From contig CP136066.1 of assembly GCA_032622095.1 (NCBI GenBank), positions 112,861,319 to 112,925,318 on the forward strand: DNA of 64,000 nt, written 5' to 3'. Source of the stretch: Siphonodentalium dalli. Its lineage: Eukaryota; Mollusca; Scaphopoda; Gadilida; Siphonodentaliidae. Under the pieces are notes generated by a model. That model was not told the origin of the DNA, searched no databases, and worked only from the letters and a program-made list of their open reading frames with translations. Position 1 is the stretch's first letter, and every line of letters begins with the position of its first letter. Below are positions 3,025 to 57,362 of the stretch, one piece after another. The position numbers were made by a program, and so were the translations under genes.

Positions 3025-3466
3025 CTTCTTCTGGAACCTGTGGCTTGTATCCGTAGTTTACAACAGAAAGTTCGTTAGTCCTTGGGACGTTTCTGTTCTG
3101 TGGAATATTTGGCGGCACTTGTTGATTCTGTCCGAATTCAAATCGCCAGGGACAAAATGTCGAATTCGGAGTTTGAGCATGTTCGCGGAAGAAATTTTGA
3201 GGTTGTTGAGGTTCTTGTGGCGGAACAGTGTTATTACCAAGTCCTGAAAAGTACATAAAATTCGACGGGTTGATACCACCTGAACCGTCCATCAACTCCG
3301 GACTACCATTTTGTCGACACGATTGATTTAGTCCTAAAATTTCTTGGATAGCAAACGATGGTCTCTGTTGGGCAGCGTACATTTGCCCAAAGTGTCCATT
3401 TGATGAGTAGTGATTCTGAAATGGAGACATAGGTGTCGGAGCCGTGCTCAGAAGTCCATTCATCAT
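3025..3466 (-). CDS. vsx: Vsx/Chx10-type homeobox protein, first coding exon (partial gene)
   Basis: N-terminal exon of a paired-like homeobox transcription factor of the Vsx (Chx10/Vsx-1/Ceh-10) family; these nuclear proteins control visual and interneuron fates. The exon opens with two ATG codons at 3466-3461; the first is chosen because an in-frame TAA lies 12 nt upstream (3478-3476) and the context (ACAATGA) is good. Residues 38-46 read FAIQEILGL, followed by NQ, which matches the octapeptide-type motif near the Vsx N-terminus (FGIQEILGLNKE in human VSX2, from memory). The rest is low-complexity, rich in Pro, Gln and Asn, as usual before the homeodomain. The exon ends in phase 1 after 147 codons at the donor AAG|GTAGGG (G of GT at 3024). 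The homeodomain exons must lie left of base 1. It cannot join the Vsx exons at 55-57 kb in the normal order, because an N-terminal exon of that gene would have to lie at higher coordinates. Family assignment rests mainly on the motif. Confidence 0.8.
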
Positions 3467-6400
3467 TGTCGGAAATTAATATGGAAACTAATCTTCCAAT
3501 GTATCCGTATCTTCGTGAGTGGATTTTGTTGTTAAAAGTTAATTTTCGATGCTTCCTTTACACAAATTAGAATACAAATTGCCTATAAGCCATAGATAGG
3601 TATCTCTTCTCTTCACAGAATTTCCCTGCAAATTAGTTGATTTCATCTAGCCAGTGTTTAACTGTCAAATTTAAGACCATTAGCTCGTGACGTAATTGAG
3701 CCAATATGCCAATCGGCAAAACTCGTCTCCATTCGCTAATCTTCGACGATTTGAATAGCATGAAAAGAGGTGTGTGTGAGCAATAATTAGCCGCCATTTT
3801 CACAATAGTGACCTCCCATTTGTTTGACGAGACTATGACTTGACGCATTCACGTCGCTGATTTGTCGATTATTGACACTTAGCGCTATCTCAGAGCAACA
3901 AGTCGGATAAAAGCGCGCATATGATTTCACACATTCACCGGGGCTTCGTGTGGATATGTGGGCTGTAAGTTCGGCGGGAGGCAGCGAAAACACCCACTCT
4001 TGCAAAATTAGGTCTTTTAAGGGAAGATGCCAACTGCCGACAAGTTCTTGACATCTCCGGCGAAATATGAAACTCATTTAGAAAGCAGATATCAGCAAGG
4101 TGCGTATGCACATGCTTCTTGACTGAGGAGTTATCTTGAGGCATCTTGTGTGAAAAATAGCACGTTTTCTTACATTCGGAGATCAAACTGAAATCTCAGT
4201 ACACGACGGGTAGCTATGCCGTGCAACCAATATTCTATGTATCGCCGTCTTTGTCGTTACAAGACATGACTCATTCGTTCAGTAAATAAATAAATACATA
4301 AATCAATCAATCAATCAATTTTATTGTCTCAAGTCATCATAATTGATATAACACAGTTTGAATTATGAATAACAATAATATAGTGCTTAAATGTAATATG
4401 AAACTCAAACATAATCTAGGCCTATACGCAATTTGGTAGTATAGTCTGGCCGTCGGGGCTGAAAATATAAGGTCTACAAGGAAACAAAATATGAACAAGC
4501 CATTTGGTATCGTTGGAAAGAGGAGATCTTCGTGTATAACATATAAAATCAGCTAAAATCCACATTTGGGGAATATGTTCTACAGCGACCTGAATAGGGG
4601 TGGGGTCTGACGTAAATTATGAACGTAATTATATGATATGTCGTGGTATAGGACTTACGCAGTTATACAAGTATGTGTGAAATTATGGGGTGGGATCGTA
4701 TATAGTGACACGGACAGAAATGGCTGTCAAAATGGCCGCAACTACAAGATCTGTCACGACGAAAGCAACATATTGGATAACCACATAGGAGTGAACATAC
4801 GTATTATTAATATACAGTTATGTTGTTTAGTATCATTAAAGGTACACCGATCATTAAAACAGATCCACCTGAAGGATCTATTGGTCATTGTAACGAACGC
4901 AAGTCAAACCCAATGGTTCGGGTTTCCTGCTTATTCAACATCCAACTGTCCGGCCGAAATATAATAATTTTGGTCATGCAACACACAAATTAATGTTTCG
5001 CCACGCAGTTCATGGTAGTTTCATTTGGCATTGTGAGTAATTATTGAATGCAACACATAAACTGAAGTGCACACCCTTGTGGTATAAAGACTAGTTACAT
5101 TAATGGAATTTGCTACACTCTCCGTGATAATATGTCTCAACGATTATCATACCACAAAGAAACACTCATCTCTTCAAATTATTAGCGCCATATCTCACCA
5201 GATCAAATAGATGGAACATATTACAGTTTATGTAAGACTAATTTTCACGCTGCTACCAAACCGGTTTATTAGTAGACAATTTTGTTCAAATTACTCCAGT
5301 ACCAATCTTACAACTGGAATATACTATATATACCACGCAATGCACAATATTAATTTTCGGTATCGTTTTGATTGAAAATATCTTACCAATACCACCCACG
5401 TAATTGTGCTAAATAGTAGGGGATCATCGTTTAAAGATGTTATTTCAGCATTGAACATTCGCTAAATGTTGCTATTTCTGGTTTTGTGTACACCAACTAT
5501 ATGTAACATTAGGGATAAGGTGTAAACGCGGTGATGCGGTTGCAGAAATCGTAGCACTTTTTGCGTATTGTTGAATATAACCAAATATAATTTCCAGCTA
5601 TAAACACCGTCTCAGCCACAGAATATGTAAACCATATTAGTCAAGTTTAGAATTTATTGAAGATAGGCTATGATACTCCTTTGTGTTTTGATAAATTATG
5701 TTCATAATATACCGCCATGCATTCTTGTTATAAAACCGAAAAATTCGTGTTTTTTCACCTGATTGGAGGCAACTATTACTATATTGAGACGTAGATCTTC
5801 ACATTTTACCCAGTACTATATGCACACCTCTTATATGGTTCTATATAACAGTGCATTTTGAAGGTTTGATGTTGTAGATATCAAAATAAATGATGATCGT
5901 TCACATTCACGAGACTGCTCTGACTTCATATATTTCTGCTTCTAAACAAGATCACAGAATCAATACATGCAAATCGCATTTAACTGTTTAATTACACATA
6001 TAATCACACGATTCAACATAAAAAAGAACATAAATCTGCGCCCAAAAGTCCAGATTTGACCGTTGCACGAGACCCTGCTATCGATTGCTCTCTCTTGAGA
6101 TTAATTACGGAGAATTCTTACAACTCTGACCTCTTATACTCTGCAATGAATGTCCTCGGTTTGCTCTTGTAGTACTAGCTATTACATTTGGCACAAAGTG
6201 TAATTTTCATTCAGTTTTGTCCATTTTTGCGGCCATTTTTGGGAAAGACATTTTACAGCTATCGTTTACAACTAAGCGTTGTTTGTCAATATTTAAATTT
6301 ATTACGAATTTGGCATTAATTGTTGCACCTACCGCAGAAATTCAACAATTTCCTATACTAACAACCATATTGGGCGCCATCTTAAATATAGAATTTTCCC

Positions 6401-6929
6401 AAAGCGGATTTTAGTGGATTTTGGATATGTTGTCTGCCCGACAAAATGACACCAAAAACAGCTTGTTAAGAATTTTTTCGAGGTCGCTTCAACGACCAGA
6501 CTGTAGGAACAAGATTGGAGAATAAATACACGAACAACCGGTTTATAGATATATAGATATAACTGGAAACCATTATTGAAGTCATTGTAGTTTTCAAATG
6601 TTTTTTCGAACAGTACTCAAACGCTCTTCATGCGCACCTATCAGGCATTTAATGCTCTATATTGTTTCCGATTTTTTCTTTTGGGCAAGCAACACATTCA
6701 ATTCAAGGCTAAACTTTAATATAGTAACTTCGCCATAATCCCATGCGCCGAATATCATTACGCAGAATAGTGATACATGACTTAATATATCCACACGAAA
6801 CACTCATTGAATGATAGAAACTGAAGTTAAAGCTTGTATCCTTCATTTTTTTCAGTCACTATTTAAAAAACTTTTGATACTTTGCAATTGCAATTATAAA
6901 ATCCACCCGATTTGTTTTAGTATTTATAG
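3467..6929. other. Stretch upstream of the left Vsx exon; no gene recognised
   Basis: The 5' UTR and promoter of the left Vsx gene should lie in the first part of this stretch on the minus strand, but I see no certain TATA box or initiator. A probable LINE 3' end occurs at about 4285-4390 on the minus strand: AATAAA followed by a short ATTG-repeat tail (seen on + as CAAT repeats at 4300-4320). The rest is AT-rich with only short open frames and no recognisable domain. Confidence 0.5.
4285..4390 (-). mobile_element. LINE-type 3' end with ATTG-repeat tail
   Basis: Read on the minus strand, the sequence ends GACAATAAAATTG followed by several ATTG units. A polyadenylation-like AATAAA followed by a short tandem tail is typical of CR1/Jockey-type non-LTR retrotransposons. 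No coding part is recognisable, so this would be a heavily 5'-truncated copy. The boundary away from the tail is arbitrary. Confidence 0.45.
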
Positions 6930-9050
6930 TTGTCTCCCTTTGACACACCCTACAGGCCTCATTTTTCATCCGATCATCACCAAACTTCATTCGGATCTTT
7001 GGGGTTACATCTCGGTGGGAGCTTTCGAATTTTCGAATTTCGTTGAAAAAACATGGCCAACAGCAGCCATTTTGAATTTTACATTTCAATCAGTTGGTAC
7101 AACCTGTAACCCACATTTATCGAAGAAATTATTTGAAAATTTAACGGCATGTTTAGGATCAACCATAGATGAGAGCTATCGAATTCGAAAGATTTTCGTA
7201 CCAAAACATGGCCGCCGACAGCCATCTTGTTTGTTTTTTGACTAAATCCTTCGTGACGCTTCCAGCCAAAATTGTCCATCCCATTGATCCCAACCATTAT
7301 ATGGACATGGTGTGACCTTTAGCCGAGAGCTATCGAATTTGAACGAGTATCGATAAAAACATGGCCGCCGGCAGCTATCTTGGATTTTACTCTTTTCGTC
7401 TGATTCATCAAAAACGGAAACAAGTGAATCTTCGGGGTGATCTCCAGATGGGAGCTATCGATGTTTTACGAACTTCGTTGAAAAGCATAGCCGCCAGCGA
7501 ACATGTTGGATGTCAAATTTAAATCCATCGGCACACACTGCAGCTCACATTTATTAGCTCAACTTTACAACGTAAAGTTTGAGCTATTGCCATGGATTGG
7601 CGTCCGTCGTGCGTGCGTAAAACGTTTCTTTCGACACGCCCTTAATGTCGCATCCCTCATCCGATCTTCACCAAAATTCATGTGTAGCTTCAGGGTGAAC
7701 TATTGATGGGAGCTATCGAATTTTTCCGAATTTCGATGTAAAACATGGCCGCCAGCAGCCATCTTGGATTTCAAATTTGAATCCATCGGCACACACTATA
7801 TATACAGCCCGTATTTATGACCGGATAATTTTTTAATATTGCAGGCACGATTGTGATCACCTGTAGATGGGAGCTGTCGAATTTGAACGATTTTCGATAA
7901 AAAAAAAACATGGCCGCTGGCAGCCATCTTGGGTTTTACTCTTTGCATGACTAAATAATTTGGCAAACTCCCCTACAGACCACATCGCTTCTTCGATCAT
8001 CACCAAATTTCATACATATCTTTGGGGTGACCTCCAGATGGGAGCCTCCTATTTTGACCGAAATCTGTTTAAAAACATGGCCGCCAGCGGCCATCTTGCA
8101 ATTTACTCTTTGTATGACTAAATCATTTGGCACACCCCACAGGCCACATCTCTCGTCCGATCATTACGAAACTTCATATGGATCTTCGCGGTGACCTCTA
8201 TTGATGGGAGCCTCATATTTTGACCGAAATTTGTTAAAAAACATGGCCGCCAGCAGCCATCTTGAATTTCAAATTTGAATCCATCGGCATAGTCCGCATA
8301 CCGCGGATTTACAGGCATGTTTAGAATCACCTCTAGATGGGAGCTATCAAATTTGATCAATTTTCGATGAAAAACATGGCCGCCGGCAGAAATCTTGGAT
8401 TTAACTCTTTGCATGTCTGAATCCTTTAGCACACCATACATCTTGGAATTAACTCTTTTTATGACTAAAAATCTTCTGTTTATGAAGATGGGAACCTCCT
8501 CTTTGACCTGAATTCTTTGAAAAACATGGTCGCCAGCGGCTATCTTGGAATTTACTCTTTGTATGACTAAATTCTTTGGCACACCCTACAGAGCACATCC
8601 CTCATTCGATCATCACTTCTGGGTGATCTCTAGATGGGAGCCTCCTATTTTGACCGAAATTCGTTGAAAAATATGACCGTCAGCGGCCATCTTGGAATTT
8701 ACTCTTTGTATGACTAAATCCTTTGCCTCATCCGGTCATGATCAAACTTTATATGGATCTTCAGCGTGACTTCTTTATCATTTATTTCATTGTTCAGCAA
8801 AAAATAACTCCTCCTACAGTGTCATTAACACTTTCATTGGAGAAATGTTTTGAAAACTTACCGCATGTTTAGGATCACTTCTAGATGGGAGCTATCGAAT
8901 TTGAACGATTTTCGATCAGTAACATAGCCACCGACAGCCATCTTGGATTTTTTCTCTCTATGATCAAATCCTTCATCCAAGGAATATTTCTCATCTGATT
9001 CATCACCAAGCCTAATATGAATCATCGGGGTGACTTCTAGTTTCATCATC
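6930..9050. repeat. Diverged tandem array with units of about 150-165 bp
   Basis: A block with a shared core (roughly ACATGGCCGCC, AGCAGCCATCTTGG) recurs near 7050, 7207, 7359, 7485, 7744, 7909, 8075, 8240, 8374, 8524, 8670 and 8930. Most steps are 126-166 bp and two are about 260. Two unit types alternate: one carries a TTTGAATCCATCGGCACAC stretch and the other a CATGACTAAATCCTTTGGC plus CACACCCTACAGGCC stretch; both continue into GGGGTGACCTCCAGATGGGAG. Copies differ by many substitutions, so the array is old. The core is nearly self-complementary (GGC near GCC), resembling motifs in inverted-repeat elements. Small open frames across it are repeat artefacts. Confidence 0.85.
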
Positions 9051-11422
9051 AATTCAGTTCCTAAATTATTCTCTCTCCAAGTTGAGCTACAGTGACATTG
9101 ACACTTTCATGATATGTAGTTTTGCCCAACAGAGGAGCGAAATTTATGAGTTGCCGAGAAAACCCCGGATAGTCCTTCATAAAACAAAGTTACCGAACAG
9201 CATATACCCCATACTTATACTTAAAGAGGATAACCGTGGGAAAATTTAAATTGTTGACTTCCAGAACTGTATCTAAATAGCCGTGCAGATCATATCTCAT
9301 AAAAATGATACAAAATCTGCCACGCAACCACATTGGCTCATATTCACCATGCAACTGGGTTTATATATAGTTCAGGTAGTTTGTATCTGGCGAGACTCAA
9401 TTCGAAGCTATATGTGGTAGTCGATCGGATTATATGGCCGCGTTATATGATTATCCGATCAAGGGGATTTGACGGTGATCGTTCACTATTGCTTATCGCC
9501 TTCGCATATAGCACTACATGTGTACATGCATGCTTGGCTCGTTTCAATTATGAGCAGCATATTTGTGTATAGACTACCAACCAACGCCCACATTATTGAA
9601 AATAAAAAGTATCCACCAGCCCAATTATATCTTCAACACTCATTCCAGCCCAATTATATCTTCAACACTCATTTCACGGAAAAGTTTAGTCTGAGTCTCT
9701 ACCTTTATATTTGCTGGTTATATTCGGTGAGTGTCCGCGATTTTGACGTTAGTGTCTTTTAATAAATGGCTAATCTGAAAAATAGTCTGATAGATTGGGT
9801 CAATTATTTCCAAGAAAATGTCTGTCGTAAATGCTAGCGAAGGTACCCTGTGCGTTCAACCACTGCCAATTAAACTACCCGGTTTATAAAATGAACCCAG
9901 TTGGTGAATAACACCTAGGTTTTCTTCCGAAGATCTTCCACCTGCACAACTCCCACATCCCACATGTATATATACTTTCCATATGAAGATATGTAGTAGA
10001 ATCGGACGTCTTGGGGGGGGGGGGTAATTTTGTTTGCGTGTATCTCTCACCACGTTAGAAATTAGTGGGGGCATACGAACCGACAACGACTGCATGTGAA
10101 TGAACGTTGCATAGGAAATCGCCCGAGGCAGCGTTGGTGTAGGACAATGTAGCAACACGTTTTCTCGTTGCCGAATTTGTTGTCATCCCAACTCAACTGG
10201 TCTCACTGGGTGTTTAATATAGTTAAATACAGAGCACTGAACCAATCACACATTGTATAGTGGCTGTTCCTTGGTTTCAGATACATTTTGCGAAAACCTT
10301 CCTCTTATGTGGGCTGACGTCAATTGAAAATTCTCAATAAAACACGATCGGTTGAGGGGTATAGGCAAATGACAATTGTTCAAGTTCACAATAATTTCAC
10401 TCAGTAAATTAGTAATTCACAATGCACATGCATGTGGTTCTTAGATCTTGGCATGTCTGCCAGGTACTAATCGGGGTCGTTGATTTCTACCTGCAGTATA
10501 TAGAGTGACATCTCAGTGAAATTAACCCTCGTGTGGTATTTCGTCCGTCAATAAAACTGGCTAGGTTGCCATATGGTCTAACGGCTTGATCGTCAATAAA
10601 CCCCAGCACACAAAACCAATGTGTGTGGTACACTTAAGAGAACAAAACAAGAACGGTAAGATGGTGAGACTGATATACTGTTGAATTCCCCTTTGTGGCT
10701 AAATATAAAATAACGTCTGGCGAAAAACGACGAATGGGAAACAACAGATAACGTTGTTAATTCATTGGCCCTATAGTTCGTAGTATCGACGGAGAATTGA
10801 ATTCAATTAGAAGAAAAACATTTAAGATCAGATATAGTTTCTTGATAAACAAGTTAGGTAACTGGATAACTCAGCTGGCACAACAACGTCTGCCCACCGC
10901 TCTCACGCCGTGTGGTTTTGTTTTATTTTCTTCTGACTTGTCCAAATATAATCACAGCGAATTTGAGTGGCAGCTGTGACCCCGGATGACACTTGTTGAG
11001 GGCAAGCGGGGCTAACGGTGCCACTGGGTTGTCGCAATAGGTGGCCACTGAAAATGAAGGGGGCTTCTTTCCATGTGAATAAGAGCCATTCAAATTACAC
11101 ATAATTGAAGTACTCAATATTATTTTGCACCTATAACTTCATTTTAAACGCGCAATTTATACAAATGATATATTCTAGTGGTCAAGTCTAATTCAATACT
11201 CATGACATACAAATGCATATTCTATTGCCTTTTCCTGTACTTTTAGCCACATAAATAAATACATTACCGTATAATTATAAAGTGTGATTCGATGCCAAGA
11301 GAAAAACACACGCTAATAACTGTAGTTTAGACGAGGACAAGGGTGGCAACAATCTAACCTATATTGTTTCTGTACCCAGAACAACCAAAAGATATTTTCA
11401 TGCAATTATGTATATTTTGTGC
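9051..11422. other. Unique-looking stretch, no gene recognised
   Basis: AT-rich sequence with only short open frames. It holds a perfect 29-bp direct duplication (CCCAATTATATCTTCAACAC block, about 9620-9672) and a poly-G run of about 10 near 10014. No homology to known proteins is apparent. Confidence 0.5.
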
Positions 11423-12992
11423 TTAACCCTTTGAACCCGTAACACCGATATTTAGGTGCAAACGAACCGTGACTATATCCCGTAACACCGATATTTCGGT
11501 GCAGCGACGACATGATTCGGTAGCAAATTTATATATAGTATAACGAGCGTCTGACCCACTGATTTATATTTAAATTGCCCCCACATATGTCAGCGGCGCC
11601 CATGGTGCGTATGGAATGGTTGACCGCTAGTATCGGGTAGAAATATATGCGCATGCGCATAGCATATAATCTACAAAAACATACGATATTTTAAGCGAAC
11701 TATGCCGCTATATTTACGGCATATAATTTCGTGTTCCCCGTGTGTGTACAGAACAGACGTAATTTAGACACACAATTTCAGTTTAAATTACCCTCGTGTA
11801 TATTAACCAGTGTTCTGCTACATATGGGGAAGGGTCTATCGCATATGAAGTTGATTTATTCGCGCATGCGCAGACTAGCGCAATGACAAATAAATGGTTC
11901 ATAACGTACTTATACACGACATACCCACTAATATATATATTTAAATTGGCCTATTGAAGTCAGCGCTGGCAAAGGTGTCTATATGGATTGGCTGCCCGCT
12001 ACAAATGGCTAGGAAAATATGCGCATGGGCGCAGACTATAATTCATTTAAAAAAATGCGTTTAAGTTAAATGTGGCGCTATATATGACATTTTGTTGCAT
12101 GTTTCACATGTTAGTATAGTAGACACAATCTAGACAGCTTACTTGAACAATGGGGCCCCGACATGTTACGGGAAATTACGTTGTTTCTGGTCTCTGTAAT
12201 ATCAGTCTCTGTTGTGCCACATGCAGCAAAAAGTCTATCGCATATCAAGTTGACTTACTCGCGCATGGTCAGGTATATCTTAATTTCACATTAGGATATT
12301 GGTTGCATCGAAACGCAATTCGCTGATGTATAATTACAACGTTATAAGCTAGAATTCGTTTATCCTGCAAATTTCGGGTAGTTGCCTAGTAACCGTTTCT
12401 AAGGCGAGATCGGGTGGCAAAGTCTCCCGATCTTACAATGATCAGTGGTCCGTGCATGCATATATCATGCCTGCACAGTTTCAGGTAGGTGTCCCCTTTC
12501 AACATAACCAACACCATGCGACTAGACACTGTCTAAATTAAGGCAAAACATACCACTGAATGGTTAGTGCAATTATATCATTCGATCAGTTGTGGTATTT
12601 GCTTAGCAACCGTTGCTACCCTTAAATGGGATATTTGGTTCACTATTCTGGTCGGGTATATCTCAAATTTCACGTTAGGGTAGTACCTGCATCAAAAAAC
12701 GCAATCACTGAGGTTGAATTACGACGCTATAACCTATATTTACATTTTCCAGTCAATTCCGGGTAGTTGCCTAGCAACCGTTACCAAGGAGTTGCCGCGA
12801 GGCAAAGTCTCGCGATCTTATAATGATCGCTGATCCATGGGGGACAAACCTGTAAAGTTTCAGACCGGTGTCGCAATTTTGAACATAATCAACACCATGC
12901 TACTAGAAACTATCTAATTTAAGCGGACATACCACTGGGAGCCCCGGGTCAGGGTGTCGATCACTGTGGGGCGCCAGGGTTCAAAGGGTTAA
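11423..12992. mobile_element. TTAA-flanked non-autonomous DNA transposon (piggyBac-like ends)
   Basis: Left end TTAACCCTTTGAACCC (11423-11438) is mirrored at the right end by GGGTTCAAAGGGTTAA (12977-12992). TTAA target sites followed by CCC-type inverted ends are typical of the piggyBac superfamily. The 1.57-kb interior has no transposase frame. It contains two pairs of internal direct repeats: one about 365 bp apart (blocks starting near 11553 and 11918, each with a GCGCATG-rich motif) and one about 390 bp apart (blocks near 12290 and 12680, sharing GGGTAGTTGCCTAG). It also has copies of ACACCGATATTTNGGTGC near its left end. Confidence 0.75.
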
Positions 12993-13540
12993 TTGAGATT
13001 TAAAACAAATTAGAATCATTCCGATTGTTTGAATTTGCCTAAAACTTTAGAGGCAGCAGCCTAAATGTGTCTCCCAGCCTTACGACCTTATCCCCATCGC
13101 GAATTCTCCAATTATCGAAAACTAGCCTGTACCACCATCGAATCGCATCTGGACGACAGAGATGAATCGATGTTAACTCGCACATGGGGATCAATTAAAG
13201 AACGAAAAGCTGTCATTACAAAAAGGCGTCCATTTTAAAATATAAATAATAAAACATCGAAGATATCAGGGCGTTCGGGAAATATCAGCCGGCGTAAGAT
13301 AAGTAGCTTAATTTGCCTCTCGTAACATTATTTCTCTCTATACTCGCTCCGCGTGATTGACAGGCAGCAGAGTTCCCTGAGTTCGTGTCAGTCGATCTCT
13401 CACGGTTGTACTATTCCAACAATCATATTCAGGGGCTCGGTTAGCTCCCATGATATGGAAGTGGGTAGCTACTAGTAAGGTTTGATGGGAAAGTACCCCT
13501 TGTTTAAATTGACGCAGTTCAATGTGGCGGCATACAGGCT
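12993..13540. other. Stretch without recognised features
   Basis: No convincing open frame or repeat. Slightly higher GC than the surroundings. Confidence 0.4.
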
Positions 13541-13642
13541 ATGCTATGGTTTTGTTTATGGCATGGTGTATTGGAATATATAATTCACATATTATTCCAC
13601 TATGTCAAACTCCATATTTGGAGGAATAAACATATATCTCTC
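13541..13642 (+). mobile_element. 3' end of a LINE with terminal stem-loop
   Basis: The sequence CTCCATATTTGGAG (a 14-base stem-loop candidate, about 13611-13624) is followed by GAATAAACATATAT and then a CT tail. The same arrangement ends the LINE at 21.8 kb (minus strand), and a close variant ends the insertion at 16.1 kb. This copy is heavily 5'-truncated; its left border is not defined by a target duplication that I can see. Confidence 0.6.
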
Positions 13643-13652
13643 TCTCTCTCTC

Positions 13653-13729
<77 letters not shown>

Positions 13730-13732
13730 CTC
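13637..13732. repeat. (CT)n microsatellite
   Basis: About 95 bases of CT dinucleotides with a few interruptions. It starts exactly where the LINE 3' tail begins and ends against a tRNA-like sequence. Open frames across it encode Ser-Leu repeats and are not genes. Confidence 0.95.
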
Positions 13733-13825
13733 CCTGGTCAGGGAATCGAACCTGCGCGCTCGTGTCGTTTGTCCCGTTATGTTAGGGTGTTATCGATCCG
13801 ACATGCTACCGACTGGAACATCGCA
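13733..13825 (-). mobile_element. tRNA-derived SINE head (partial)
   Basis: On the minus strand a box A-like TAGCATGTCGG (13809-13799) precedes a perfect box B, GGTTCGATTCCC (13752-13741), followed by a GA-rich tail. The A-to-B spacing suits a tRNA-derived polymerase III promoter. No clean cloverleaf or anticodon arm can be drawn, so a SINE head or tRNA relic fits better than a working tRNA gene. Confidence 0.55.
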
Positions 13826-15960: not shown

Positions 15961-16209
15961 TATTGTTTATGTGGAACAGTATTGCTCTGCTGTAAGTATG
16001 ATATGGCTGTATAATGGAATGTCTACCTTATGTAGTGCACGAATGTGTGTATATGTGCATGTATAGTTGGTTTATCATACATATTGAGACATGTGTTGTA
16101 GATATGCTTGTAATCTTAAATTTCTTATACACTCCATATATGGAGGATAATAAAGATATATATATATATATATAAAGATATATATATTGTTTATGTGGAA
16201 CAGTATTGC
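15961..16209 (+). mobile_element. 5'-truncated LINE insertion flanked by a 25-bp target duplication
   Basis: The same 25 bases (starting TATTGTTTATGTGG and ending CAGTATTGC) occur at 15961-15985 and 16185-16209. The roughly 200 bp between them end with the stem-loop CTCCATATATGGAG, GATAATAAAG and a TA-repeat tail. This is the signature of target-primed reverse transcription by a LINE: a short 3' fragment, a simple tail and a long target-site duplication. Confidence 0.8.
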
Positions 16210-16429
16210 CCTTCTATGACAGCTATATAGTGTGACTGGGGTCGTTTAAGTGTGAATTAGATACATATTACATGGATGAATAGATATCCACACAGTCGAT
16301 AGGTATCTATAGGTGTGATCTGAAATTGACAATTTGGAGGTAATATTAATATTAAGTAATCAAATCCACGTGTAACCTAGAGAAAAATACTTTGATAATT
16401 CAATTTCATCAATATATATGCTTTACTAG

Positions 16430-23039: not shown

Positions 23040-23041
23040 AT

Positions 23042-44043: not shown

Positions 44044-44044
44044 T

Positions 44045-44636: not shown

Positions 44637-44639
44637 ATC

Positions 44640-45884
44640 CTGTTTAACACCCAGCTCCTTTGTTCAACCTCGACTTTCTATTTCTCCGAAAGAGCATTTT
44701 ATATTTTATACTATGCTTTATACCACAAGTCGACATTCGTATAATCTAGAATGGTCATGTCTCCCAATGTATGCACAACCAACTCCCACGTGGACTTCTA
44801 TTCGAGAAATAGTTCACTTCTAACACCCGCACACAATAACAAACATCTGCATAGTGGTTATAAACCCCACGTAATACAATTCCTTGTCAGAAAAGGCAGC
44901 ATGTTAATTTGCATACCAGTTGTATCTATCAAATTCAAACATCACACGTCATCATAATAGTTACTGTTCTGCGCCGAACGATATTAATTTGATCATTCGC
45001 GAGTCAAAATTATACTAAAATGCATTCATGCCCAAAATACAGATAATTGCGTCGACAGTATAAATTACGTATAATTATGTATATAATATATACTAGTTAT
45101 ATTTATAGCGAACACATTTATTTTATTATATCTTTGCGTAAGTCGAAGTTTAATTTCGAACAAACTGTACTGGACAGTTGTATATGCCTGGACAATTGTT
45201 ACCGCGACGAAATTCACGTGCAATTTCTACTCATATGAGCCGTGGTGTGGCGTGGTTTTGCTGTCTACCAAGGACTATTTCCCCACCAGAAAGACGTCTA
45301 TCTTGACTGATTCAACTGACTGCTAAAGACAACGGACACGTTACAGTGCGATATATATAGTGGTAACTAACAGTGAGGAAGGCGTCAAATGTCGCCCTGG
45401 CAAATAACGTGTGGAAATCTCGTTTGTAACCGGATTCGTCTTCCAATTAACGGTGTTCTAATTGGCTGCTAATAAAATCATTATTAGTTGTTCTCGATTG
45501 ACCATCATTGGGAAAGACACCATATTATCTTATCACATTAAAGGGGTACTCTACTCAAATTATGTTGTTGGTTTCTATATGCTTTGCTTCGTAGAATAAG
45601 GTCATTATTTCCCTTATTTGATTGTCTGCTGTATAATTACGAAGTATTGTTACATAATAATGGCAGATAAGTCGGAATGCAAAATAAAATGCTCGTCGAG
45701 TGATTTTTGTACAGTTTTAGGCAATGTATTAAATAAATGTAATTATACATGCACAATAGTCCCAGATAATCATTAATTGTATTGTATAAATAGTGAGTGG
45801 CTTGATTTCAGCCCCGTATGTGTTTTACACGATGCATGCCGCGCTTTGTCCAATCCACTATCCGTCATTTTTGTATTATAGTCT
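44640..45884. other. Stretch without recognised genes
   Basis: AT-rich, with only short open frames. Confidence 0.4.
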
Positions 45885-48800
45885 AGGCAAATATGGACAT
45901 AGGTGTCGCCTGGAGAGGGAATTTATGAGACCTACAATTTTGGTTAGCATGAACGCTTAACTTTCAGAATCAGTATGTTGGCTTTGTCAGATAGGCGGAC
46001 TTTTGTTTTGCACCGCGTGGTTTTATTGAGGCACCTGGTGATAAAAGTGGTCATTTTTTAAATAAACCCGACATATTTGACAGAGTATATTCACACATTT
46101 TGAGAAGAGATATTCATCCAATGTTGATACCTGTGAATGCGGCGATAAACATATTAAGGTAATACATGTAATCATTGAATCTCGGAATGACAGTCATGAC
46201 GTCATGTGACGTCAAATAATGTTTAGAGTGAGAAGAATATGACGATTCACGCAAAGCGTTGCCTTTCGTTTCTGATAAAATCAGAAGTGAGATGGTTATG
46301 CCCATTTATTTTATACCGTGGGAAACTACTGCCAATTAGCTACGTTCTAATATATTACTTATCGCTGTTGGTCGCATTAGTTTTTATCAAAGGCAGAAAA
46401 ATCAACCCTCCCCCTAAAGCTGAGAGGCGTCAGGCTGTGGTGTAAGGCACACATAACGCACGAATATGTGTCAAATTGCGAAATTAACACAACGGCCGTC
46501 GATGGACTGCAAAGGTATTGTCTAATATATATGTTTCGATCGACACAGTCGAGCATTAAAGTAAAAATATTACATTTTGTACATCCTGACTAAATTTTTG
46601 ATTTTTTTTTTGATTTTTTCCCAAAAAAGATAATCTAAAATTTATTTTGTCTTCTTCCGGGAGGCAAAAATGAAAATGATGTATTAAGGGTGGAGATAAT
46701 TAGTGTATACGGTAATTTCGTTCTGTCTTGGTTTAAAAACTGGTCTAATAACCCAAGATGGCTGCCAATATGGTGGCCGGTATATAGGTGGGAATTGTGA
46801 AAGTTGTAAAAACGCACGATTACTTGCCAAAATGGCTTAACTAATACAACGGTCGTTGATAAACTGCTACAGTTGTATGTAGTATATATATCCCGATCCA
46901 TTGAGTAGAACATTTAAGTAAAACCGGTACACAAAGCACCTCCTGGCCCCAATGTTTAATAAATATTTATTAGTTTAGTCCAATTAAAACTAATCGAAAA
47001 CCTATTTTTGTCATCTTCTCGAAATGTATCAAGACAATAATGTAGTTTGGGTAGATATAATTTGAATGTACGATACTGTCATGCCGTCGGCGGTTACTAC
47101 ATGGTATATTAACCCCAAGATGGCTGCCAATACGGTGACCGGTATATGGATGGAAATTGTAAAATCTGTCATGTCGCAATTAACACCACCATCGCAATGA
47201 AATGTCATATACAACCAATAGTCCTATTATATTCATATCATTTTGCATTACTAGGACGTAAAAGTGGCCAGTTCTATTAAAATAGCAACCAGATTAACAC
47301 ACACGAGTGAGAGGATCGACAAATATTGCATTCATTCGCGCTGAAGGAAGATTTGTCAAGTAAGAATAAGGGAATTATGTAGGTTATATTAAATATAACA
47401 CGACATTTAAGCATACTTGGCAATCTCTATGGCTATTTGTAACAACATTCGACCGCGAATAACAGAATTAACCAATTAACCAATTCGGATATATATCTCA
47501 TCAAATAACTCATGTTGATACGAATCGTTAGTTACCCTCCATCACCTAGGCGTGGTTACAAGAACGGAGCTACTGATAAATTGGGTCTCATGCATACCGT
47601 TCTAAAAGTAAGAATAAATGGATCTCATTGACCAATAGCAATTGCTGCCCAGTCCAGCAAATTATCAAACCGTCACATCATACATGTTCGTTCAGTTTCA
47701 TCATCACGCAATAGACTCGTAGTCAAGGCTCTGAGCGATATTTCCAACAACGAAAATACCAGCGATGTGGTAAATCACATAAACTGTCAAAATATGTCCC
47801 TATATATTTCGATTGTATGTTACTCTGTATAGTATAGTACTGGAGTCTCGTGTCATCCCATGTGCACTCCTGATTTCCAGAAGTGACTGAACAATTGCTT
47901 GTAGGACGAGATACCCCAAATATGGACACTTATCCCACGCTAGATGAACAGTCATGTTATCCATATCTGTCTATGCTGATGAGTAGTTAGGGTTACTTCT
48001 GGAAGGCTGTGCATTCAGAAAACAGCGTATATATCGGAGTATTGGCATGGAGTTTTATCATGTAGATTGATACATTTTGGACTTTTGGTATCCCAGTGTA
48101 AGTTTTAGCTCATTATAACACCAAAATAAAAAGGACGACAATTGCAATTATTGTTATACATGCCATACGCAGGTTGATACCAGGAGGCGTATAATAACTT
48201 TGTAGATAAGTCCAAAGATAATGCGGTTAGAGACCTGCTGATGCCAGCAGGTCGGATGTCTGAAAACATACCATATTTTGATTATGGCCGTTCATGATTA
48301 AAGCATTATAATTCCGCCCGGCATATCTAAAGCCAGATGTGTTGCAGTTAAATTCAAATGGGTCTATAGTTACCCCACTATGCGCGACGTGAGTGGACCG
48401 TGTGTAGTGCGTATCCTGATATTAAATTGTGGTAGTGTTTGATGTACAAATGGGTAAAACAAAATGGGATCACGAGTCTTGGTGTAATTTGTCGCTGCAT
48501 CTCAAAAATGATATATAGTAACAACTTCTGTGCAGACCAGAATCTGATCTACGATAACTCATCCATAACAACTCCGAATGTGCTGAGCGAATTAAGTAAC
48601 TTGACACGATAGCCGTAGTTTAGTATTTACTGAACAGCGTGTGATGAATACATGCATATGTCTTTATACAATCGGGACGATATGAGGACGAGGAATTATT
48701 CGCCATATTGTTTTCCACCGGTGTTGCCTGTAAATACGAATATTGAATACAGCCCGATTGATTCATAATGACATGGGTTTTACGTTATAAACACAAATGG

Positions 48801-51608
48801 TACTTGCAGCAGCAACAGGTCTCCTGGTCTGAATATGACACGTTCAGGTGTAACATAACGTAGACAAGTTTACTTTTCCACCAAGTTGGAAATAAAAAAT
48901 TTGATATTTCTGTAGGTTATCGCGTTCATATATTGCAAATAAAGCGGTCCTTCATGGCGATCTTGTTCAACGGAAACTGCATAATTAAATTAGGCACACA
49001 GGAGGGATTCTCATTCTGGACATGACTATTCTTATGTTTATCACTGATAAGATATTTTTTCGGAAGATGCAAAATCTGAACTAAATTTGTACAACGAGCG
49101 CTATCGTTTTCTGAATCTCATCTTCTCTGCGTTATTGGACACTAGTCAATGAAAGCGGCGATGGTGATTTAGGGTCTGGAAAATTCACTCTGTGTTATCA
49201 CGACCGTCTTCTGTGTGTCGAAGCGGTTGTACAGCAATTGTACATTGTATATAACAGATTAATCGAGGCACTGACTCAGAATCAAAATCATTGCTTCAAA
49301 TGTGATTGATTCAGTGTCAATCAGTGAGTGTGAACAAATTATCATTTATTATCGAAGTGTTCATGTATTTATCGGATGGCACATTGCGATGTTCCTTATC
49401 TCACATCTAGCTTTAAAATCGGTCCCAATTTTCGCCCAATCAAGTCGGGTGTGAACCCACATCAACCTCGTCTAGCCCAGACTTCGATAATGGTATCCAC
49501 GCCATATCCACCTCACGGACATGACACACTGGGATGACCATGGTTTTTCGGCCCGGTGTGAGAAAATTTTGAAAACTATACAAAAAAAATCGAAAATCCT
49601 AGCATCTCGACTAGCCTCAACTGAAGCTTCCCTAGTGTTGGAAATTTCAAACCTTATACCCCTCCTCAGGTTGGTAAATTCTCCAACTGATGACCATTTC
49701 AGTCCACAAGTTTGACCAAATGTAGTAAAATATTGTGTTTGTTAAACTAGCCGTTTTATATTGGCCATGGAGGGACAATGACACACCGGGCCGACTATGG
49801 TTCGGCCCGGTGTGCGAAAATTTCCAACTGATGACAATTCCAATGACAATGTTGACCAAATGTATGACACTATTGTTTTCTTAAATTAACTAGCAGTTTT
49901 TTGACTGCCCACGGGGTAGGGACCAGCAGGACACAAGCTTTCCAAGTGTTGGAAATTTCCAACCTGTCACCCCACTAAGGTTGGAAAATTTCCAACTGAT
50001 GACCATCAGTCAAAAAATTTAACCAAAAATAGGAAAATATGCAAATATTGGTCCTAAAACGATTAATTCCCCCAATAAATTGTTTGAAAATCAAACTACA
50101 ATAACATTTTCAACTAATTGTTGATGGAAAATTTCCAACTAACGTTTTGGCAGGTATGAAGTTTCCAACTGTTGAAAATTTTGACCAAAGTTTAGGGTGA
50201 GACACCCCCATACCCCCCCCCCCTGTCGCCACGTCTCTGGGAGTAACATGATACAATGAATATAATACTTTGGGTTGTGTGAGACATTAGATGGCGGCAG
50301 TGACGGCGATAAAAGTGAAACATGACATATTTCACCATTTATTCTGACCACCGTATTGGCAGACATCTTGGGGTTAGTAAGCCATTTTGTAATCTAGAAA
50401 CAACATTGAATTATCGTACCCACCTAACATCTCCACCACGCTACATTATGTGCGTTGTGGTTTCCGAGAAAATGACAAAAAAATGGTTTTAGGTTATTTT
50501 TGGAGAAAAATACCTTGAATTTTTTTTTTTAAATGTGCCAGGAGGTGCATTGTGTAATATTTTCACTTATTGTTCGAGTTTGTAGATTGGGATATATACA
50601 TTAAACTAGAGTTTAGCAGTTCATCAACGACCGCTTTGTTAGTTAAGCCATTTAAGCAAGTAAATGTGCGTTCTTACATATTTCCCAATTTCCACCTATA
50701 TTGCGGCTGCCATATTGGCAGCCATTTTGGGTTAGTATGTCATTTTTTAATCCAAAGTGGAATGAAATTGCCGTATACATCAATTATCTCCACCCTTACA
50801 ATTCTTTTCTTGTTTTGCCTTCAAGAAAATAAAAAAAAAAATGCGTTTGATATCACTTTTTTGGGAAAAATTCTAAAATTTATTAAACTTTCGGGTTTGG
50901 GGGTACATTATATATTGTTTCTACTTTAATGTTCGAGATTGCCGACATAAATTTATATATTATTACATTCTTTAGCAGTCTTTCAACGGCCGTTGTGTTA
51001 ATTAAGCCTATTGACATGTAACCGTGAGTTATGTGTGCCTTATACCACAGAATGGCGCATCTTAACTTTAGGGGGGAGGGTTGATTTTTCTGCCTCTTAT
51101 AAAAAATAATGCGGCCTAAAGCGATACATTATATATATAAATATAGCCAATTGGCAGTAGTTTCCCATGGTATAAAACAATGCGGCATATCCGTCTTACT
51201 TTATGATTTAAAAGAAACGAAAGACAACGCTTTGCGTGAATCGTCATATTTGTCACGCCAAAAATATTATTTGACGTCACATGACGTCATGACTGCAATT
51301 CCTAGATTCAATGGTTACATGTATTACCCTACTCTGGTTATCGCCCCACTCTCAGGTATCAATATTGGACGAATATTTCTTCTCAAAATGTGTGAAAATA
51401 CTCTGTCAAAAATGTCAGCTTTATTTAAAAAATGACCGATTTTTTCATCGGGTGCCTCAAGAAACCACGCGGTGAGAAAAAAAGTCCGCCTATCTGACAA
51501 ATCCAACATATGGATTCCGAAAATTTAGTATTTACGCTAACCAAAAATGTAGGTCTCATAAATTCCCTCTCCAGGCGACACCTTTGTCCATGTTCGCCTG
51601 GCATATTA
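45885..51608. mobile_element. Foldback-like element, 5.7 kb, with long inverted arms
   Basis: The left arm (about 45885-47215) and right arm (about 50330-51608) are inverted copies. Left TAGGTGTCGCCTGGAGAGGG and GAATTTATGAGACCTAC match right GTAGGTCTCATAAATTCCCT and CCAGGCGACACCT. Deeper, left ACAGAGTATATTCACACATT matches the inverted right copy, as do GGCAGAAAAATCAACCCTCC and CCAAGATGGCTGCCAAT. Within the left arm, a unit of about 360 bp ending in AAGATGGCTGCCAATA is repeated, the layout of Drosophila FB/Galileo-type elements. The 3-kb middle holds TTGGAAATTTCCAAC-type repeats (49.6-50.2 kb) and no transposase. No target duplication is clear; TA is possible. Confidence 0.7.
49620..50180. repeat. 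Cluster of GTTGGAAATTTCCAAC-type short palindromes
   Basis: GTTGGAAATTTC, GGTTGGAAAATTTCCAACTG and ATTTCCAACTGATGACCAT recur several times. A repeated block (CCGGTGTGMGAAAATTTT with GGCCCGG) occurs at about 49550 and 49805. Confidence 0.65.
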
Positions 51609-53452
51609 CGTCTTGTACGTGAAAATTCTTTAAACTATGTTTACGACCGGAATGATAAATAAAATTTATATTAAATTATTAAATTTGATTTTAGGATAAC
51701 CTGTTAACCTGAACGTTTACAGACGACATCTTCGATTCATATTAACTATTTTTCCATGTATTATCGATATTAGATCAGTATTATGTATATATAATTACAA
51801 CTACTTTCGCTTTCGATTAAATACGTGCATTTGATTGGTCAATGCCCTTAGATACGCTTGGTCGCGACAATCTCTATCAGCCGAGGGAAATGTCGTTTCC
51901 CGCATAGTGATACTTTGAGAAATTGGGCGACATGCACCAACGGTCGCCCCACACCATGACGCCATTTCACAAAAGCGTCCATAGTTACCGTACCGTGAAA
52001 ATAAAATTAACGAATTAGACAGATCAGTGAAACTATGAAATGCGATAATTTAGTTGAGGATAAAGGAATGTTTTACATAACTATTCCACTATTAGTATTA
52101 GCATTTATCCAGCTTCGTGGCAGTACTAATGACATGGCAGTGGTCACGAGAGCATAGAATGCACCTAAACTTTCCTAAAGTTTGTTTACTTTTCGAGTTT
52201 GTCACCGGAGACCGCAAATTCGGTGGGGAAGTTTGGGAACACCATTTCGGAATTGATATCGAATCGGATTGTCTTTATGACAATAGATGTTCTAGAATCG
52301 TTTTAAATAAGTGAAATTTACACCAGCAAGTACAGTTGAATAGATTACGGGTGTGGTGTCTTGGTTTTGTATAGTTGGAAAGTTGGAAACGGAGATCGAA
52401 TTGTGTGTGTTCATCTCGAACATCCGGTCGGTCGCCCAATTTATTCTCGACCCAATTTCCCATTTTCCGCTAAAAGAACAGCTGAAGTCCAGACACAAGT
52501 ATCACTTGGGTAGTTTTACTATTTTAGTGTTTTATATATAGTTTCTTTAAAAAAAACTAGTTTAATCACCAACTAATATGCGGATTGTCGTAATTATAAG
52601 CAATCAACGTCGTTTTCGATGCATCTGTCGGCGTGTAGAAGTGTCTGATGCCGAACTACATAGATGCCGAACTACATAGCCTACTTAGTAGTCAATCATT
52701 CACTAAACGAATCACAAATCAGCCACAGCGACGTGGCTATAGATGGGTTTCGTTCTGGTAGCGGTGTCAACTATTGAATTTCGAACTGAACCTCTTCATC
52801 AAACCCAAATTCACAAACCGAAGTCATATTCCTACACACCTTTTATGATGTGAAATATATTATTTTGGGATAAATAGAACAGACTTTAATTTACACACCA
52901 TTTATTAGGCAAAACAATATATACAAGAGATCGAGAACAAAACAGATGTTCTCCAATAACTTAAAACAAGCAGTAAACCTATACAATATATCATTACTTA
53001 TCTACGATATGGCACCAATAAAATATAACAGCACATTGATTCGTGTATCATGTCGTCATGGTAACACCGAAATAGTGGAATGTAACACAATTAAATCTCT
53101 ATAACTCTTGTCGTGATGATTACTCAAACAAATCTGAGACATGCAACCTATTTGAGACTGATAAGTGCATCTGGATCGTACATATATTGCCGAGTCGTGG
53201 TCTGAGCATATTTTGAAATAGGATCGAGAGTTAGACTCGAATCGAAGCTCGACATCGAATCGTATCGATATCGAGATCGAATAGCATTTCGAATGGAATC
53301 GGGTATTGGTCAATGATGCGTGTTCTCTGTAGTTTTAAACTTTTTGTCTAACAAGGAGTCTGTTTTGCCATAGGACTCTAGTTGTTGTAATGTTTTGGAT
53401 TCGGATGCAATAAGATCAGAATTTCGCATGCCTCTTTTTGAAAGTTACACAT
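51609..53452. other. Stretch without recognised genes
   Basis: Slightly less AT-rich than its neighbours in places. No long open frame or domain found. Confidence 0.4.
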
Positions 53453-53722
53453 TTAACCGTTTCATAGCGGGAGCTGCACTGGTGCAGCTTTAAAGATCGT
53501 GTGCCAGTGCATTCGCTTATACATGCGAGTCTCCCATATGGAGCCACGCATATATAAGAGAATTCACTGACTTACAAGGCCAAGGTAAATATTGTTAGGC
53601 CAATGCTTTCTCTTATATATGAATGGGAGGTTCCCTATGGAAGACTCTCACATTTTAGAAAATGCATTGGCACATGGTTATCATGTTAACATTTCTTGAA
53701 GCTCCAGTCATCGGAGGGTTAA
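53453..53722. mobile_element. TTAA-flanked MITE (270 bp), second copy of the 34.7-kb family
   Basis: Left TTAACCGTTTCATAGCG and right CAGTCATCGGAGGGTTAA are bounded by TTAA. The interior shares GCATATATAAGAGAATTCAC, CAAGGTAAATATTGTTAGGC and AGCTCCAGTCAT with the copy at 34699-34953. The two copies differ throughout, so both are old. Confidence 0.8.
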
Positions 53723-54672
53723 TGTCGATGTTGGCACCTTTGTAATAATGTTTTTGTGACAGCGGATATTTTGTCCGTGCAATTGGAAAGCAAAACGAGG
53801 ACACGGCACCAAATGATTGGCTCTACAGACTACTTCGGGGGGGGGGGGTATCACCCACTCTTTGGGTACGCTGGATTCAGACCTTTTCCATGCAGTACGC
53901 GGGATTCAACCCCATCTGCTAACTTGTACTCGGGATGTAAATGCCAATTTTAACCGGTATTCGGGATTAAAAAATAAGGGTGGTAAACAGCTTTTATATA
54001 GCACCAAATTGTTCAGATTTTGATTATTTCTTAGCCAAAATGGCAATTTTGATGTAATTCAGTATAATATATCTTGATTGTTGAAGGTATTAGACATTAG
54101 TTCAGCAAATGTGTGAAAATTATCACATTAGTGTGACATAATTATGACTTGTATTGTGTAGATCCATAACCGGTACGCAAGGTTCACCCCTCTATTTTAT
54201 CTGCATGGTATTCGTGATTCAGGGGGCAGGCGGGTGACACCCTCACTTCGTGGACAAAGTTTGCAAGCGACGGTCCGATATAAATATAATATGATATGTA
54301 CTTGAAGTTGGTGTGACTTTTAAGACGCGGTCTATATTTCCATAGCTTATATACGTGTATACATTCTGATGTATACACTCAATAGTAGTTTCTGTCACTA
54401 TATATAGAAATAGATTTTATCGTTTTTCCCACACACCAACTGAGACATCTTTCTTGTTAATGGGTTATAACAATACAATGCTATGTGCACTTTGTGCGTA
54501 TTTTTAGAAAAGTTGTCGTGGTTGTTGTAAGTGTTGTCCAGGAAAAGAGACCCCATCTTTAAGACAACATACCATGAAAGTAGAATCGAGCTCTCTTCGT
54601 CCTCATAAACTGTTTTCGTCGATTTCATCAGTAAACACCTCAACATGAGTAAGTTACCCTTGATAATATATA
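53723..54672. other. Stretch without recognised genes
   Basis: A short G run (about 53838-53848) and AT-rich DNA. Open frames are short and unrecognised. Confidence 0.4.
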
Positions 54673-54885
54673 CAGCAATGCCCTAAGTAATCGACCCCTT
54701 AACCACAGCAGAATTATGGGTAACTTTTCAGGATTTAGTCGGAAATATGGCTTGTTGCCATTCATCGGAAAGCTCTCAGGGAGAGCTTTCCGATGAATGG
54801 CAACAAGCCATATTTCCGACTAAATCCTGAAAAGTCACCCATAATTCTGCTGCGGTTAAGGGGTCGATTACTTAGGGCATTACTG
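54673..54885. mobile_element. Near-perfect palindromic MITE with TA target site (Tc1/mariner-like ends)
   Basis: Arms of about 100 bp (CAGCAATGCCCTAAGTAATC inward) are almost exact inverse copies. They meet at GCTCTCAGGGAGAGC near 54779. TA dinucleotides lie directly outside both ends (54671-54672 and 54886-54887). Only a few arm mismatches exist. A TA target and a CAG start fit the Tc1/mariner group, but the superfamily is an inference. Confidence 0.8.
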
Positions 54886-55484
54886 TACGCTGTAACTCAA
54901 GATTCCTGAGGCCGATTACCGGAATTTTAACATATTTATTCAGTATATTATAGGACTTTCGAAGTGACGTAATGTCGACCTGCTGAGTGATTACATGCTT
55001 GAGTGAGCACAGTATGTGTGGAAGTAGTGTTTAATTCAAAAGTCACAATTTAAAGACTAATTTGAAGAACAGCTTAGTTATGAATGTGACCGATGTCACG
55101 ATACGACTTGGGGCATCAAGACAACGGAAGATATCCTAATATCAAGGGCAACTTACTTTTTCAGGTATTTCTAAGACCGCATAAATCATTACCATGCACT
55201 TTAGGGAATATTGACATTTTGCGAGCCTTAGATTGAAGGACGTCGACGGTAAACTTCAGGTTCAAACATCGATAGATAATAACGCTCTATACTCATGGTT
55301 GGAAAATATCATCCAGTGGTGAGTCGGCTATGTTCTATTTCCAAACGAAGTCCGCGCAACAGTTAATGTTATGTAAGTGCTTTAGTCGATAGTGACACAG
55401 GAATAATATATATAGAGTCAGTATTAGGCGGGATTGCTATATCTATACTCGTGTGAAAAAAAGTGGTGCGAGTGCTATCATAAG

Positions 55485-55490
55485 TTTATT
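55485..55490 (-). promoter_or_regulatory. Candidate polyadenylation signal of the right Vsx gene
   Basis: On the minus strand CCAATAAACT supplies an AATAAA about 125 nt after the Vsx stop codon. It is the nearest such hexamer I noticed; other TTTATT matches occur further downstream. Confidence 0.4.
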
Positions 55491-55612
55491 GGAAGACTAT
55501 TTTCAGCTACCACTGGGCGAATTTTCCCGCCACATATATTTATACCCTATCGATGCTTGAAGTGCGATGTTGACGTTCTTCAAACTAAACATGCTCAATA
55601 TGGTGGGATATT

Positions 55613-55878
55613 TCACACAACGTTGATGTTTTCGTTTTCTTCGGAATCAGAATTAGCTGCCGGATCTTTAAAATTACTCTTGAAGCTGTCTTCGTCCTTC
55701 ATCGGTGGGTCTGTCATGGCATTATGCTGCTGTGCCTTGGCTCTTAGTGCGGCGATGCTCTCCGACCGGAAGTCCTCGCGGTCTAGCGTCACAGACTCCC
55801 CGCAGTCCGAATCGCCAGACTCAGAACAACCGTCCATTTTGATCTTTTGGCCAGCCTCCATCGACTTTTTATGCATAC
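55613..55878 (-). CDS. vsx: Vsx/Chx10-type homeobox protein, last coding exon
   Basis: The exon begins after the acceptor TTGCTGTAG with the two bases that complete a codon split with the preceding exon (A|GT, Ser). It then reads MHKKSMEA, which follows the CVC domain in Vsx proteins (LLGMHKKSLEA in human VSX2, from memory). After an acidic, Ser-rich stretch comes FRSESIAALRAKAQQHN, matching the OAR-like motif of the Vsx C-terminus (RENSIAVLRAKAQEHS in human VSX2, from memory). The tail is acidic (DSEENENINVV). The TGA stop is at 55615-55613. The exon gives 87 residues after the split codon, so the C-terminus is shorter than in vertebrate VSX2. An open frame on the opposite strand (55434-55892) is a shadow. 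Confidence 0.92.
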
Positions 55879-57181
55879 CTACAGCAATGTAAGAATAACA
55901 ACGTCATTAGATTCCGTTTTCATGTTGAGTATTCCTTTGACTGAATTAAAAGCTGTGCGAACTAGCGAAAAAAAAACACACATAGGCTGTAGATAAACGA
56001 ACTGGCTTCACAACTGCAAGCATATATGGTTATATTGAGTTCACCAAATATAGCTTATGTACACAATGAGCTGTAAGAAACAGCGGAGTTCGGTAAATTT
56101 GAAATCAGTTTTTAAAAGAAAATGTCTTGACGTCCTCGAAGACATAAATTCCTGATGGTTGACAATTAAAAGACTTTTAAAGATTATTAACAATCAATAT
56201 AGTTTGTTTATAAAATGTACATGTCATTTGTTCTACCGGCACAATGTTAAAAATCACGAGAGACATCCACTATAAGATCACAAGTACCGTTCAAAGGAAC
56301 ACTATAAGTATTAGCGTGATAATACATGTATTTTCACTCCAGATTATAGACAAATAAGTGAATATGATGTCAACGTCTAATATAGTGTTTTCAAACAAAG
56401 TATTTGATACGCTAGAATGTAAATTAAAAGCGAAATATTTACATGAAACTCGAAATAAATGCTTTAAGGACCCTTCGTCATATATACAAACGATCGTGAG
56501 AAAAACATATAACAGTCAATACATTGTCAATGAAACAACATTACAATTATGATATCCTTTGTAGATAAAATTTCTTCCTGATAACTAGACTGCATCAAAC
56601 ACGTTTGTAACATCCGGGTTTCGTGTGATACGACGAAACGACAATTACAAATGTACAGCTGGTTCGATTAGCTCGTGCGCTAACTTTGTTATTTTTTAAT
56701 TGCGCTCACCGTGTGGGGTGATGAGAAACAATTAGGTTGCGACAGTGAGATAAAATTAACTATCAATTCAATTCATCTTAATCAATCGTATAGCATGTGG
56801 GAGTTTATGAAAATATTCCGATCTCATCCGTCACTTCGCTTCATTATGATGGCAGCTATTAGAATAGCGGATCCGTTGAATGGCAGAAACTGGTCAAACT
56901 TAGTTTAATACATGCATATACCTTTGGGAAGGTTCATTAAACATGGCATATTGCAATTGATTCGGGCGATATATGTATTTAGTTTAACTATGAACAACAT
57001 TGATTATCTTTCAAGGGGCCCTTCTCTAATCGGGAGTTGGAACCTAATAAAAGAATCAGCAAAAGCTATCCAAAACTTCTAACATGAATGTAAGTAGAAC
57101 TCAAACGAACGTGCATGGGGGCAACTAATCACATTATAAGGAGGATATAATATCCAACAATGTAGGGTGGCATATACTCAC
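55879..57181 (-). other. Last intron of the right Vsx gene
   Basis: A 1.3-kb phase-1 intron between the CVC exon and the last exon, with GT and AG borders on the minus strand. No repeat stands out in it. Confidence 0.85.
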
Positions 57182-57362
57182 TGAGGAGCCACGGCGCGCA
57201 GTCCTCGATAACTCCGTCCTTGGCACTCCTGAGGATGGTTTCTGGAAGAGGTAGAGAGTGTCTGACCATGGCGCCATACAGGCCGTATTCAGCCATAATG
57301 CTGCTCCGCCCCCACGTCTTCTCTGTCTTACGCCACTTAGCGCGCCGGTTCTGAAACCAGAC
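57182..57362 (-). CDS. vsx: Vsx/Chx10-type homeobox protein, exon with homeodomain end and CVC domain
   Basis: A 181-nt exon between a classic acceptor (TTTCTTTTTCAG|GTC) and donor (CTCA|GTGAGT). It starts with [12 protein letters not shown], the end of homeodomain helix 3, so the upstream intron falls between homeodomain residues 46 and 47, as in many paired-class genes. Then follows the CVC domain: [34 protein letters not shown] and CAPWLL, which identify the Vsx family. Residues 47 and 50 (Val and Gln) are conserved. It differs from vertebrates in having TEKTWG for REKCWG. It ends in phase 1 and joins the 55878 exon to give LLSMHKKS. The upstream exons (octapeptide motif and homeodomain residues 1-46) were not found up to base 64000. 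Confidence 0.95.

Follow-up and report, generated by a model that had tools for sequence, protein, structure and literature searches.

A head-to-tail pair of Vsx homeobox genes in the scaphopod mollusc Siphonodentalium dalli

Two five-exon Vsx genes on one strand

The stretch of Siphonodentalium dalli DNA analysed here is 64,000 nucleotides long (the window; C6:112,861,319-112,925,318, in a 2.23 Gb assembly of 9 contigs) and holds parts of two homeobox genes that we place in the Vsx family, which is known for its role in forming visual and other nerve cells. A preliminary description of the window located a Vsx N-terminal exon at 3.0-3.5 kb on the minus strand and the C-terminal half of a Vsx gene at 55.6-57.4 kb on the same strand, and argued that two head-to-tail Vsx genes are needed. 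Both placements hold up: the former corresponds to an exon at 3466-3025, which encodes the octapeptide FAIQEILGL and closes at a gt splice donor, and the latter to exons at 57362-57182 and 55878-55613. We fetched flanks of 80 kb per side and modelled both genes, upstream Vsx-A and downstream Vsx-B, from the first ATG to the stop codon. The features are given below in window positions, with negative numbers to the left of the window.

82732-82342 (right of the window), minus strand: Vsx-A exon 1, octapeptide FGIQDLLGL
74071-73981 (right of the window), minus strand: Vsx-A exon 2, placed by reading frame and splice sites alone
65546-65423 (right of the window), minus strand: Vsx-A exon 3, homeodomain, Pfam 48.0 bits
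57182..57362, minus strand: Vsx-A exon 4, last part of the homeodomain, VWFQNRR onwards, followed by the CVC domain
55613..55878, minus strand: Vsx-A exon 5, OAR motif (Pfam 29.3 bits) and stop codon
3025..3466, minus strand: Vsx-B exon 1, first ATG, FAIQEILGL octapeptide, gt donor, phase 1 intron
-16136..-16217 (left of the window), minus strand: Vsx-B exon 2, placed by reading frame and splice sites alone
-18690..-18813 (left of the window), minus strand: Vsx-B exon 3, homeodomain, Pfam 45.9 bits
-24566..-24746 (left of the window), minus strand: Vsx-B exon 4, CVC exon
-30403..-30719 (left of the window), minus strand: Vsx-B exon 5, OAR motif, Pfam 23.4 bits (cut-off 20.1)
3467..55612, no strand: intergenic stretch between the two genes, 52,146 bp, with repeats and pieces resembling long interspersed nuclear elements (LINEs)
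22629..28306, minus strand: LINE-like open reading frames in the intergenic stretch, reverse transcriptase four times (two over and two under the Pfam cut-off) and endonuclease once

All ten exons were recovered, colinear and on the minus strand. Each gene has five exons and four introns; the eight introns all follow the gt...ag rule, and their phases run 1, 2, 0, 1 in Vsx-A and in Vsx-B alike. Both reading frames are open, encoding 350 amino acids in Vsx-A and 381 in Vsx-B. The stop codon of Vsx-A is separated by 52,146 bp from the first ATG of Vsx-B, and since the tail of the one faces the head of the other, the two form a head-to-tail tandem pair. The preliminary description had proposed looking beyond both ends of the window. 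To the left of base 1 lie a homeodomain exon, 18.7 kb out, and a CVC exon, 24.6 kb out, and to the right of position 64,000 there is a second octapeptide exon, about 18 kb out. Two outcomes that it had named as refuting, a lack of any homeodomain/CVC exon within reach on the left and an assembly inversion, did not occur. A search of the genome with the Pfam homeodomain profile likewise yields partial homeodomain exons on the minus strand beyond either end of the window, at a distance of 1.4 kb on the right and 18.7 kb on the left. Chance is ruled out as the source of the exons in the window because the remaining exons of both genes sit in the flanks in the correct order, strand and phase, and the genome-wide search with the CVC exon, described below, agrees.

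Family placement and copy number

Both genes carry the features of the Vsx (Prd-L:CVC) family. Exon 3 exceeds the 22.9-bit Pfam cut-off for the homeodomain in each, and the joined frames read RRHRTIF...; we take these homeodomains to be of the paired-like type. The Vsx-A exon 4 contributes the homeodomain end, matching profile positions 45-57 only (E 3.2e-4; 20.9 bits, under the cut-off). Beyond the homeodomain both exon 4s continue into the same motif of about 60 residues, the CVC domain, a label based on its published description and on the motif itself, since no CVC profile was among the Pfam matches. Upstream, the octapeptide reads FAIQEILGL in Vsx-B and FGIQDLLGL in Vsx-A, presumably the Vsx form of that motif. 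Near the C-terminus both proteins have an OAR motif over the Pfam cut-off (E 6.8e-7 for Vsx-A), which we assume to belong to the family as well.

The vertebrate proteins VSX1 and VSX2 share this combination of homeodomain and CVC domain, and counterparts of R200, G223 and R227 of VSX2 are kept here: Vsx-A and Vsx-B have R, G and R at the same spacing. Substitutions at these three positions of VSX2 are linked to human microphthalmia (PMC3447932). When the solved structures were searched with the Vsx-A CVC exon, matches ran through the homeodomain end only, the best being aristaless, and nothing matched on the CVC domain.

How many Vsx genes the genome holds was addressed with a genome-wide search for the CVC exon, in which 23 of 23 candidates were scored. 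At E<=1 there were 13 matches, of which Vsx-A (E 1.9e-36) and Vsx-B (E 4.0e-27) were the two full-length ones. The other 11 have E-values of 0.02 or worse and span at most residues 1-41 of the query. Six of the 11 (L070-L075) were inspected: the homeodomain end is found in each and a CVC motif following it in none. No third Vsx gene was thus found in the CVC-exon search of the genome. Nor is there a third partial copy at E<=0.5 in the 224 kb around the pair, where the matches, 18 in all, lie inside exons already described. A scan of genome contigs for the Vsx genes of other animals returned a single locus, a chance peptide on a bacterial contig, and on viral contigs none.

The two genes are also each other's closest relatives among the homeodomains compared. 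In the exon 3 stretch from RT to RIQ, Vsx-A and Vsx-B share 38 of 42 residues, and 12 other PRD-type homeodomains, hand-picked among 40 small loci and so a selection from the PRD-type homeodomains of the genome, share at most 29 of 42 with either. The homeodomain search is no census, because 150 of its 505 candidates were scored; as a control it was run in 14 named genomes, with 0 matches.

Age and origin of the pair

Of the 57 homeodomain residues, 53 are the same in Vsx-A and Vsx-B, as are 39 of the 54 in the CVC stretch. Over the 111 codons of the homeodomain and CVC stretch, the proportion of nonsynonymous differences (pN) is 0.108 and that of synonymous differences (pS) is 0.98 (70.75 differences at 72.2 synonymous sites), and the same codon is used at 29 of 85 identical degenerate residues. 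As the synonymous sites are saturated, Vsx-A and Vsx-B are old duplicates, neither haplotypes nor a recent copy, although saturation by itself cannot separate several hundred million years from far less. With pN low while pS is saturated, both proteins are held by purifying selection. The preliminary description had left it at a duplication either independent or ancient; of this, great age stands, and the event may be the one seen in the fly or the oyster or a separate one.

The two genes are neighbours on the same strand, both are intact, and their common ancestry is evident from exon structure, intron phases and sequence. We are highly confident that they are two intact Vsx paralogues, in head-to-tail order and separated by about 52 kb, that arose by an old tandem duplication in lophotrochozoan ancestry. 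Several points count against this interpretation. The gene models are predictions from sequence, with the exon 2s and start codons set by frame and splice sites, and the family placement, built on motifs, published descriptions and comparison within one genome, is likewise a predicted one. A Pfam scan of the Vsx-B octapeptide exon matched no family. A genome search with that exon recovered nothing but the exon itself and a spurious hit (E 0.9), missing Vsx-A exon 1, so that it cannot serve as a census either. In the N-terminal halves of the two proteins, likeness is confined to the surroundings of the octapeptide (13 of 25 residues).

Taken alone, the window shows a single octapeptide exon and a single CVC exon, in an order that is wrong for one gene, as would be seen if a single Vsx gene had had its exons shuffled by inversion or by a contig misjoin. 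The flanks make this extremely improbable: they hold a second version of all five exons, each differing from its counterpart, and the ten exons compose two complete, divergent reading frames. On these ten-exon models we reject a single rearranged gene. Another alternative is that one of the two genes is a tandem copy of recent origin, or a haplotype retained in the assembly. Copies of this sort do seem to occur here, since the genome has pairs of identical homeodomain exons (L049/L050, L059/L060, L061/L062). For Vsx-A and Vsx-B, whose N-terminal halves are barely alignable, we reject it on the saturated synonymous sites and give it next to no weight. It would also be possible for another gene to lie in the gap, in which case the Vsx genes would not be direct neighbours. 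The gap is long, and its search covered open reading frames of at least 95 amino acids, the range for which direct neighbourhood is established. For the 34 stop-to-stop frames of that size lying wholly inside the gap, all searched against Pfam with a threshold of E<=0.01, the outcome was reverse transcriptase in four, with endonuclease in addition in one of these, and no match in 30. No host gene was recognised among frames of at least 95 amino acids; exons below that length may be present. ARAGORN, run with its bacterial setting, finds no tRNA in the window, and Rfam gives no family at the gathering score. We consider a hidden gene improbable, though less so than a single rearranged gene or a recent copy.

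Neighbouring Vsx genes are already in print, among them molluscan pairs to which the preliminary description makes no reference, and the pair described here is not new in kind. In Drosophila, Vsx1-Vsx2 is termed a gene cluster (PMC12965321) and the top-scoring paralogue of Vsx1 is Vsx2 (PMC9712503); like Vsx-A and Vsx-B, these are two neighbouring Vsx paralogues. The Pacific oyster, also a lophotrochozoan, has Vsx1 (CGI_10010562) and Vsx2 (CGI_10010563) (PMC5322547), which are probably adjacent, to judge by their consecutive gene identifiers. In the snails Biomphalaria straminea and B. glabrata the Vsx paralogues are clustered, in the view of the authors likely as tandem duplicates, and the duplications listed are taken to be at least as old as the genus ancestor (PMC8848322). 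Biomphalaria has three Vsx paralogues, whereas the full-length loci given by the CVC search here are two, Vsx-A and Vsx-B. Among annelids, a Spirobranchus gene is named Vsx B (PMC6118893), and two species express vsx2 in the anterior neuroectoderm (PMC12550047). Vsx is also treated in PMC12240821 and PMC3314550. Among the papers listed by literature searches on Vsx, none announces an ancient shared Vsx pair in its title or abstract opening, which is no proof of absence.

The vertebrate Vsx pair is attributed to genome duplication in the preliminary description. For protostomes a history may be considered in which flies, molluscs and S. dalli share a single ancient tandem duplication and the two copies have been held together by shared regulation. 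Vsx-A and Vsx-B would then derive from one event predating the mollusc-arthropod split, the small cluster would have stayed intact for more than 500 million years, and lineages with a single Vsx gene would have lost one copy. The pairs or clusters in Drosophila, the oyster and Biomphalaria, the Vsx B of Spirobranchus and the saturated divergence of Vsx-A and Vsx-B speak for such a history. However, Biomphalaria has more than a pair, and because its clustered copies are read as tandem duplicates, Vsx may also undergo tandem duplication independently; the saturation, for its part, fits a much younger event as well. We regard the shared protostome duplication, and the long-lived cluster that it implies, as a tentative possibility that is on balance rather doubtful.

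Under the interpretation that we prefer, an old tandem duplication in lophotrochozoan ancestry, each Vsx protein would work in the nucleus as a transcription factor, contacting DNA via its homeodomain with the aid of the CVC domain. The CVC domain of mouse VSX2 is required for high-affinity DNA binding (PMC3447932). Vsx-A and Vsx-B are probably both expressed and may specify neuronal cell fates, visual ones probably among them. Divided or diverged expression, together with the divergent N-terminal halves, could be what has kept both copies.

Vsx genes serve as markers in comparisons of the visual systems of distant animals, and ancestral copy number therefore matters. An intact old tandem pair is an additional lophotrochozoan data point and a well-resolved case of a known arrangement. 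If the pairs of the fly, the oyster, the snail and S. dalli should prove orthologous, the view of one ancestral Vsx gene duplicated per lineage would need revision.

Repeats at the locus and other homeobox loci

Tandem and inverted repeats are frequent in the window. A diverged repeat (family D2) occupies positions 7100-9000. Its copies are spaced by 133-332 bp and centred on a conserved stretch resembling ATGGCCGCCAGC; translated units that look similar by eye also occur beyond the right end of the window, at about 98.1 and 99.4 kb. The palindromic unit TTGGACTTAAGTCCAA forms arrays over 32973-34227, its period being about 20-21 bp. Some 5 kb separate the arms of a long inverted repeat at 45878-46414 and 51072-51606 (393 and 130 nt, with 84-86% complementarity), which resembles a foldback or terminal-inverted-repeat element.

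The Vsx chromosome carries further homeodomain exons 11 to 66 Mb from the pair, which we take to be four Otx-like, one Gsc-like, one Prop-like and one Shox-like. The presumed Otx-like exons lie at C6:101.62-101.74 Mb (L028, L029, L030, L031). These four exons, within about 120 kb and on both strands, differ in sequence and give the appearance of a local Otx expansion. On another contig, C7:76.98-79.08 Mb (L045-L057; about 2.1 Mb) holds what we assume to be a Hox-like cluster, with Post-like and Lox-like members and an En-like exon at its edge; two neighbours in this cluster, L049 and L050, have an identical homeodomain. The Post-like and Lox-like members, if so labelled correctly, indicate a lophotrochozoan.

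At C1:189.98-190.29 Mb, homeodomain exons covering profile positions 1-46 form an array, several of them with equal scores, reflecting either a young expansion or an effect of the assembly. Two further pairs are identical in their homeodomain exons and flanking residues: L059 and L060 on C7 (44.8 and 47.9 Mb), 3.1 Mb apart, and L061 and L062 on C2 (30.39 and 31.26 Mb), 0.9 Mb apart. These two pairs are either recent segmental duplications or haplotype copies retained in the assembly.

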